DNA from: an uncultured Bacteroidales bacterium
Lineage (GTDB): Bacteria; Bacteroidota; Bacteroidia; Bacteroidales; UBA932
DNA length: 64,000 nt
Assembly: GCA_944325445.1 (NCBI GenBank)
Contig: CALVAG010000002.1
Coordinates: 62,001-126,000, forward strand
Direction of reading: 5' to 3'
The notes beneath the pieces are model-generated. The model did not search any database and was not told where the DNA came from. It was given only the letters and a program-made list of their open reading frames with translations. The translations under genes were made by a program, and so were the position numbers. Positions 10,236-11,869 of the stretch are shown piece by piece (within the stretch, counting starts at the first letter, position 1; every line of letters begins with the position of its first letter).

Positions 10236-10268
10236 AACAGGCAGCTGTCCGGCTGCCTGTTTTGTTTT
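10236..10268 (+). terminator. Rho-independent terminator after ppiD
   Basis: Ten-base perfect stem AACAGGCAGC / GCTGCCTGTT (10236-10245 with 10252-10261) around a six-base loop, followed by a T-rich tract. It may serve the opposite-strand zinc-ribbon gene less well, since that side has fewer Ts. Confidence 0.85.
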
Positions 10269-10550
10269 TCAATTTTGATCTTCTTCCGGAGAATACTCTT
10301 GAGAATACCCACATCGTTTACATTTTATTTTATCAATATCACCTGTTTCGTTGTTCCCATATGCCCACCAACAATTGTGACCACAAATAGGACATATGAT
10401 AGGGCTATTGTCAAGATCTTCAATAGGAAGTTCTTCATTTTGCGAAGAGTTAAACCTATTGGCAGGAGAAGATTCTATTGCATTTGTACTTTCAACAGAA
10501 ACCAAAAGCAGTGTGGCAACGAACATTAGTTTAAAAAAGTTTTTTTTCAT
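10269..10550 (-). CDS. Small secreted zinc-ribbon-like protein, unknown function
   Basis: 93 aa. It has a clear signal peptide (KKNFFKLMFVATLLLV), a polar acidic linker, then a C-terminal module with CPIC at residues 53-56, Cys60 and CKRC at 77-80, a two-knuckle zinc-ribbon spacing with a WW pair between. Zinc ribbons are normally cytoplasmic, so a predicted export signal is unusual. It lies 25 bases downstream of a beta-propeller lipoprotein gene on the same strand and is probably co-transcribed. The arrangement recalls the small exported peptides found beside 6-bladed beta-propeller genes in Bacteroides, but the NVEALA motif of that family is absent. I do not recognise a specific family. 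Confidence 0.7.
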   Translation of the reverse strand: MKKNFFKLMFVATLLLVSVESTNAIESSPANRFNSSQNEELPIEDLDNSPIICPICGHNCWWAYGNNETGDIDKIKCKRCGYSQEYSPEEDQN

Positions 10551-10575
10551 AGTAAGTAAATTTGTTGTTATACAA

Positions 10576-11802
10576 TTATTGTAATTGAACCGCCATTATA
10601 ACCGGGTTGGATTCATCTGTAAGTTGTGCTGCGATGCTTTGCATTTGCGGCGAGCCGCTCTCCCGTGCCGCTTCAATAAAAGTCATGGCATCTATAATCT
10701 GATACATTATGCCATTCTGTAAATATTGTGGTGAAAATGGGAGTCCGTCGTCCAAATCATTTATGAATGATGAGAGTTTTGTTATGCTGTTCGGTTTCAA
10801 CAACGAGATTTTGCCGTCAGCCTTGTCGTATAAAAAGATGACATGTGAGCCGCCCATAGTTTCCACTTTCGTAAACATTGGCCACTCCTCAGCCGGAAGG
10901 AACATGCCAAAGAGCAGGAATTTTTCTGTCTCCATTATTATGTTACTTTCCGGATTTATACGATTTTCAAAATCTGATGCCTCAATGGCTGAATCATGAT
11001 ATTTACCGTAATCCATAATATAACTTGCTTTTTTCCCGTAATCCGGAATATAAGTAAAGATTGTGTCAAACCTTCCGTTTACAAGCCTATATTCACTGCC
11101 GTATGTATATAATTTGCTTATCATTGGACGAGGCATGGATATTTTACCATAGAACTGATATTCTGTTGGTCTTGAATGAAGCTCTCCCAGCAGGTAGTTT
11201 AGAAGAATCTTCCCATTTTGGTCTATAATGCAAAGCTCTTCTTTTCGTTTCATAATGGTGGAATCTGTGTATGTATGGATGAGTATGAATTCATTCTCTC
11301 CATAATTACATAGATTTTCTGCCCTGCTGACTCCCGTATTGCCAAATCCTGAAAGTTCGCTTACATATTTTCCTTCTGTATTGTATATGATTGATTTATT
11401 ATATGTCATAATGCCCAATAGGCTTTCTGTGGTAAGGAAGATTTTGCCAACACCCATGTGTTCTCCGGGCCCTCTGCCCTTCGTACCTATTGCCTTTACA
11501 AACTTGCCGTCACTTGAAAATTCAAGCGCGCTGTTTCCGTTTAGGGATGCAAGGTAAAAGTTTTTGCCATCTGTGCTGAACGAACTCACCTCTCCGAGAA
11601 GTGATTCTTCGGTTGTCTCCAATGGAATATATTTAACAGAGGAGGCATATCTGCTCAGGTTTACGGTCGCCATTTCGTTGTCCAATGCCTCTTCGATATT
11701 CAGTACCGTTATACCTTCATCCTGCATCTTTTCTTTCTTTCCTCCGCATGACAAGGCGAGCAGGAAAAGGGAAACAGATATGATCCTCAGTAAATTTTTC
11801 AT
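10576..11802 (-). CDS. 6-bladed beta-propeller lipoprotein
   Basis: 408 aa from ATG 11802; an upstream ATG at 11817 adds five residues before the signal. The signal peptide ends in a lipobox (LLALSCGGKK). Then comes VKYIPLETTEESLLGEV, a hallmark of Bacteroidales 6-bladed beta-propeller lipoproteins (DUF4934/BF3164-like), followed by propeller strands such as NGNSALEFSSDGKFVKAIG and GRGPGEH. These proteins are surface or periplasmic and of unknown function. No sharp promoter is seen; the near-consensus TAACTTTA (minus strand, about 11837) is weak. The secreted zinc-ribbon gene follows downstream. Confidence 0.85.
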   Translation of the reverse strand: MKNLLRIISVSLFLLALSCGGKKEKMQDEGITVLNIEEALDNEMATVNLSRYASSVKYIPLETTEESLLGEVSSFSTDGKNFYLASLNGNSALEFSSDGKFVKAIGTKGRGPGEHMGVGKIFLTTESLLGIMTYNKSIIYNTEGKYVSELSGFGNTGVSRAENLCNYGENEFILIHTYTDSTIMKRKEELCIIDQNGKILLNYLLGELHSRPTEYQFYGKISMPRPMISKLYTYGSEYRLVNGRFDTIFTYIPDYGKKASYIMDYGKYHDSAIEASDFENRINPESNIIMETEKFLLFGMFLPAEEWPMFTKVETMGGSHVIFLYDKADGKISLLKPNSITKLSSFINDLDDGLPFSPQYLQNGIMYQIIDAMTFIEAARESGSPQMQSIAAQLTDESNPVIMAVQLQ

Positions 11803-11869
11803 AAGCGTAAAATTCAATTCAGATTAAAATTTACGCTAAAGTTAAAAAAAAAACGAGAAAAAACAATAT

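Follow-up and report, generated by a model that had tools for sequence, protein, structure and literature searches.

The window analysed here, a 64,000-nucleotide stretch of the genome of an uncultured Bacteroidales bacterium, carries a small gene (designated here as Z) whose product is, as judged from its sequence, a member of an undescribed family of predicted exported four-Cys mini-proteins. Z adjoins a gene (designated P) for a six-bladed β-propeller lipoprotein, and we consider it very likely that this pairing is real and recurrent. While pairs of small exported proteins and propellers are already known, the undescribed exported ribbon family in a recurrent propeller cassette is new. In the reading preferred here, to which we assign a probability of about 0.35, Z may be secreted to antagonize propeller lipoproteins, the linked P representing an insensitive self version. 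The features concerned are:

10269..10550, minus strand: Z, 93-aa predicted exported four-Cys (CPxC...CxxC) zinc-ribbon-like mini-protein
10576..11802, minus strand: P, 408-aa six-bladed β-propeller lipoprotein, DUF5128/DUF4934, lipobox LLALSC
10236..10261, no strand assigned: hairpin located where Z and a neighbouring 696-aa peptidyl-prolyl isomerase (PPIase)-like gene converge

The Z and P genes of the window

The Z ORF starts at an ATG codon, and its translation comprises a predicted signal peptide (approximately residues 1-24), a linker (25-50) and a ribbon (51-85), the last of which holds both Cys pairs (C53-P-I-C56 and C77-K-R-C80). The N-terminus is hydrophobic, with a plausible signal peptidase I site (...ESTNA/IES) as judged by eye; throughout, signal peptides were called by inspection aided by a hydropathy script rather than by SignalP. 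A preliminary description had reported a small exported protein with a CPIC...CKRC pattern at this position, and the ORF, the signal-peptide-like N-terminus and both Cys pairs were confirmed. All four Cys were invariant among the aligned Z members (16/16), and the sequence outside these Cys was strongly variable. Comparison with a full-length relative (L093, 45% identical) showed that silent sites were favoured (pN 0.42; pS 0.81, saturated). Because homologues retain the four Cys and pN is lower than pS in this comparison, the small ORF represents more than a chance reading frame. No claim of diversifying selection is made; a dN/dS near 1 (0.156/0.143) was obtained for one pair, but this pair is mosaic and offers few silent sites.

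The window Z matched no family over the curated cut-off in Pfam or NCBIfam, and three further checks of small proteins likewise returned nothing over a family cut-off. The 16 Z members of the wider profile (A2, see below) gave best E values of 2.2e-4 (Pfam) and 6.5e-5 (NCBIfam), in tables that carry no cut-offs for members beyond the window Z. A plasmid collection searched with the window Z yielded no match.

The coordinates and length of P assume the ATG at 11802; an in-frame TTG start at 11817 is also listed. P carries a lipobox (...LLALSC/GG) and matches PF17170 (DUF5128; E 6e-18) and PF16288 (DUF4934; E 5e-11), both over the Pfam cut-off, and its predicted structure (mean pLDDT 89.9) has as its best PDB match 4raa, the Bacteroides fragilis exported protein BF0058 (E 3e-15). 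By curated cut-offs, propeller fold and lipobox, P is thus a DUF5128/DUF4934 propeller lipoprotein, although most sampled members of these families elsewhere lack a small exported neighbour. Z lies downstream of P on the same strand, as had been described, at a distance of 25 nt.

The T-run of the hairpin at 10236..10261 is present on the plus strand only, and the hairpin is therefore probably the terminator of the PPIase-like gene, a name that is our own and does not derive from a family search; two terminator-like sites were found, compared with 1.1 expected. This neighbour was considered because BfUbb, the B. fragilis protein discussed below, reportedly targets a PPIase. A functional link between the window pair and the PPIase-like gene was dropped, the gene being absent from the other Z regions examined, except for a relic locus in Candidatus Egerieousia excrementavium (G030), which belongs to the same genus as the window's genome.

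Relation to NVEALA peptides

Pfam searches up to E 10 gave no match of the window protein to PF14055 (NVEALA), PF14055 was over cut-off in none of the 37 genus genomes searched, and hhalign of Z against NVEALA profiles aligned 20 signal-peptide columns and nothing else. Z was accordingly rejected as an NVEALA member, in line with the earlier proposal of a distinct small-peptide class without the NVEALA motif. The likeness to NVEALA/propeller pairs that had also been proposed was upheld in that Z is a small exported ORF whose same-strand neighbour encodes a propeller lipoprotein, but the order is reversed: the small gene comes second in the window, whereas it precedes the propeller in NVEALA pairs. 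The NVEALA ORFs (~70-110 aa) are paired with propeller families that overlap those accompanying Z. They have two hallmarks that Z lacks, namely the NVEALA block and a Cys-rich, irregular tail; the four Cys of Z follow ribbon spacing.

Of 198 order genomes, five had a PF14055 match over the cut-off. Across 16 NVEALA loci, our propeller model found a propeller in eight, and all ten hand-chosen neighbours of NVEALA ORFs matched TolB_like or DUF5128 in Pfam, nine of them over the curated cut-off. Five other Bacteroidales genomes held 41 propeller ORFs in 30 loci (overlapping loci count some ORFs twice), among which one clear small exported partner was observed, itself an NVEALA peptide; other short ORFs were gene fragments or unconvincing.

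Distribution of Z and P

The window's genome (G000; 1.8 Mb, 21 contigs) encodes seven propellers of the P family and one Z. With the window P as query, relatives at E ≤ 1e-20 were detected in 4 of 37 genus genomes (G000, G030, G012 and G018), most genomes of the Egerieousia genus having no propeller at this threshold. True Z genes were present in three of these four P-bearing genomes and in none of the other 33. In G012 and in G018, full-length propeller genes number 33 or more, and many of them are arranged in tandem arrays among housekeeping genes.

A first Z profile (A1, 9 rows), searched against 39 genus genomes, gave one match in G000, seven in G018 and eight in G012, and the wider A2 profile (16 rows), searched against 398 family genomes, gave one, nine and ten, respectively, together with matches in G579, G567 and G434. 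G579, which belongs to another genus, encodes an 84-aa predicted exported Z between two TolB_like propellers, and G567 a predicted exported four-Cys Z with no propeller within 1.5 kb. The G434 match was rejected as Z, being a 231-aa, cytoplasmic-looking frame that appears FHA-like by eye, as was a match in G013, a 34-residue signal-peptide match inside a 527-aa frame. An order-wide sample of 393 genomes, from which G012 and G018 are absent, returned weak Z matches only (39 genomes besides that of the window, best E 2.7e-5), none of which were counted as Z. Irregular copies include L135 and L103, which are interrupted or have irregular starts, the third Z of L093, which has an irregular start, and L095_8168, for which translation from the first conventional start codon yields no signal peptide.

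Linkage and gene order

G012 and G018 together contain 19 Z loci (profile A2). At 18 of them a same-strand P lies within ~100 nt; in one case (G018 C27) this P is a fragment. The 19th locus (G012 C50) ends its contig, and the terminal sequence is found again, directly upstream of a P, where contig C47 ends. The pairing is thus recurrent, and the possibility that the two genes would prove unlinked in other genomes, which the preliminary description had named as its refutation, did not materialize. Since G012 and G018 are closely related (median identity 96% across 85 reciprocal non-propeller proteins), the 19 loci are not independent events. Only the whole-genome searches test linkage free of the bias of regions chosen for holding a P, and even there P neighbourhoods contributed part of the Z profiles.

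In regions that had been fetched because they hold a P, 17 Z ORFs were present. Thirteen have a P directly downstream, at gaps of -29 to +96 nt and with six overlapping; of the remaining four, three have a P just upstream (the window Z, L097 and L118) and one is at a contig end. The L097 and L118 Z genes follow P by 24-25 nt if a GTG start is assumed, and by 130 and 129 nt, respectively, from the first ATG. The usual order is therefore Z immediately upstream of P, and that of the window is the minority order. No fusion of Z to P was found by Cys pattern. A scan of 90 neighbours, hand-picked from 148 and mostly housekeeping genes, revealed no third recurrent partner, with no family occurring in more than four, and no linked outer-membrane release route or processing gene.

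P genes without Z, relics and co-divergence

Among 77 full-length P proteins (≥340 aa) in the analysed stretches of the four genomes, 18 are accompanied by an intact or near-intact Z and 59 are not (Z-bearing P: G000 1/7, G018 7/33, G012 10/33, G030 0/4). Counted among the 18 are L093_6715, with an irregularly starting Z, and L131, for which Z lies at the end of the neighbouring contig; relic loci were counted as lacking Z. In the drawn tree of the 77 P sequences, Z-bearing members are scattered in a patchy manner. Decayed Z copies beside an intact P were observed at three loci, namely the G030 counterpart of the window locus, G030 L115 and G018 L106. The first of these is syntenic with the window (PPIase-like gene, P and a 380-aa GTPase-like gene) and retains no more of Z than a broken 3' fragment, whose local DNA alignment scores 43, compared with 32 for the best of 1000 base-shuffled sequences.

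Distances between Z (ribbon part) and P were correlated (Mantel r 0.64, p 5e-5, 15 pairs), also when only the 13 Z-first pairs were considered (r 0.66), and removal of close copies left 12 pairs, which gave r 0.36 (p 0.007); near-duplicates (L124, L097 and L093z) had been dropped before all three tests. This co-divergence may reflect co-inheritance only. In one pair of loci from G012 and G018 (L119/L093), the upstream DNA and leader are ~99% identical (4058-4297 of L119), and identity falls with the first Cys and does not recover into P, indicative of a mosaic in which the leader is separated from ribbon and propeller.

Short inverted repeats (GGGGCTGYRTC ... mirrored) were observed at L113:6198-6233, L115:4959-4969 and L010:2973-3005, adjoining both decayed Z copies in G030 and, in the genome from which the window derives, lying upstream of a propeller gene. 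The window itself lacks the paired form, and the element could be a rearrangement repeat or a terminator.

Fold of Z and state of its Cys residues

The structural model of Z (mean pLDDT 67.9, pTM 0.42) shows a signal helix and a three-strand region (61-65, 72-77 and 83-85) holding the Cys pairs, and thereby the zinc-ribbon pattern of two CxxC knuckles ~20 residues apart on β hairpins, at a model pLDDT of only 67.9. A structure search gave no significant match (E ~0.3), the top ones being mainly ribosomal and RNA-polymerase chains, which we take to be zinc ribbons. By sequence, the Z family profile matches zinc-finger and zinc-ribbon PDB chains, and Z shares its CxxC...CxxC spacing and sub-threshold profile matches with cytoplasmic zinc ribbons (RPB9/TFIIS-like, Lar and YnfU); unlike these, it has a predicted signal peptide and reaches no curated family cut-off. 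From this we infer that Z would fold around a metal held by the four Cys.

The four Cys might alternatively pair with each other as disulfides in a peptide that binds no metal, a reading that concerns the fold and is compatible with any mechanism. Exported Cys are often oxidized, and NVEALA tails are also Cys-rich. This alternative is nonetheless judged rather unlikely, as the Z Cys spacing is that of zinc knuckles, and DsbB and VKOR models found no match in the window's genome (89.5% complete), while both matched in control genomes. Moreover, Cys numbers in 19 putative exported proteins, counted by a crude script, were odd in 12 and even in 7, without an even bias. The DsbB/VKOR result and Cys parity thus weakly favour reduced Cys and a metal site.

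Proposed mechanism and alternatives

The many diverged Z/P copies in relatives suggest that the two proteins work together, and a physical partnership between Z and P is probable. Z and P are proposed to form a two-gene envelope cassette, in which Z would be exported via the general (Sec) route and fold around its metal site, and P would be a lipid-anchored propeller. Linkage and co-divergence point to Z as an exported ligand of such propellers. Z may then serve as a secreted competition factor acting on propeller lipoproteins of related cells, the linked P being the producer's own matched, insensitive version. The export-signal-like N-terminus, invariant Cys, tight linkage, co-divergence and loss of Z with P kept all support the cassette, and the frequency of P without Z (59/77) is as expected if P has a job of its own. 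Conversely, no small exported partner accompanies most of the propellers sampled in the five other Bacteroidales genomes, and the G567 Z has no propeller within 1.5 kb.

PMC5705921 describes BfUbb as a small signal peptidase I-exported protein of B. fragilis that antagonizes related strains and whose variable locus adjoins divergent β-propeller genes, one of them truncated, thereby providing a precedent for a small exported antagonist beside propellers. BfUbb differs from Z in its ubiquitin fold and its single locus, and according to the same paper BfUbb producers need no immunity protein, which argues against the antagonism proposed for Z; BSAP-1 producers carry a resistant orthologue of the target (PMC5705921), a scheme like that envisaged for Z and P. 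As PMC3482391 states that β-propellers had not been found among immunity proteins, against a plain toxin-immunity pair, P is preferred as a member of the target or receptor family. The patchy occurrence of Z, the retention of P and the three relics bear on this toxin or partner question. Antagonism is further weakened by the lack of a linked release route or processing gene among the scanned neighbours and by the drop in co-divergence to r 0.36 without close copies.

Z might instead be a subunit, a regulator or an internal signal of the propeller, binding P in the envelope of the producer cell, with no antagonism involved. Start-stop overlaps of Z and P suggest translational coupling and a matched dose, which, like the co-divergence and the layout common to NVEALA/TolB_like pairs (known by family models only), would suit such same-cell partners. 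However, Z has been lost at several loci with P intact, and P mostly sits without Z, so that Z is evidently dispensable for P; we regard this explanation as possible, if on the unlikely side. A metal or redox role, in which Z, anchored by P, would capture envelope zinc or iron or act as a small redox protein of the rubredoxin type, is improbable: the CPxC...CxxC pattern, the profile matches to PDB zinc fingers and ribbons and the ribbon folds among the structure matches (E only ~0.3) would fit, yet the 25 commonest neighbourhood families include no recurring metal-uptake family, and the strong variation outside the Cys is unlike that of an electron carrier. Similarly doubtful is co-inheritance without interaction, whereby Z hitchhikes with P arrays expanding by duplication. 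The arrays are indeed large and tandem, and recent copies supply part of the Mantel signal, but Z occurs beside P in two gene orders and on separate branches of the P tree, and the pairing is also seen in a second genus (G579) with another propeller family.

Extended to the genus, the antagonist reading would tentatively, and against the odds, have Egerieousia carry diversified secreted zinc-ribbon proteins, each of which would target a propeller lipoprotein and have its own insensitive or receptor version linked to it. If so, NVEALA peptides, zinc ribbons and perhaps Ubb would represent one general recognition or competition system acting on a common lipoprotein family. DUF5128/TolB_like propeller lipoproteins are numerous in gut Bacteroidales, the family models used give no function, and literature searches for NVEALA, DUF4934, DUF5128, PF17170, PF14055, PF15869 and BF3164 (family accessions by title) found no functional account. 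That a second, unrelated small exported class recurs and changes with propellers suggests that these propellers bind small exported proteins, and the Z/P loci supply matched and mismatched natural pairs for testing such binding.

Other features of the propeller loci

In the window's genome, a propeller cluster surrounds recA, rlmN and a gene for a patatin/Omp85 protein (L010:4404-10195). A 381-aa protein with weak ATPase-type matches only is encoded immediately upstream of a propeller at L012:4148-5293, and a 125-aa predicted exported ORF, unlike Z, was observed upstream of a Z/P pair in G012 (L136:9922-10299).
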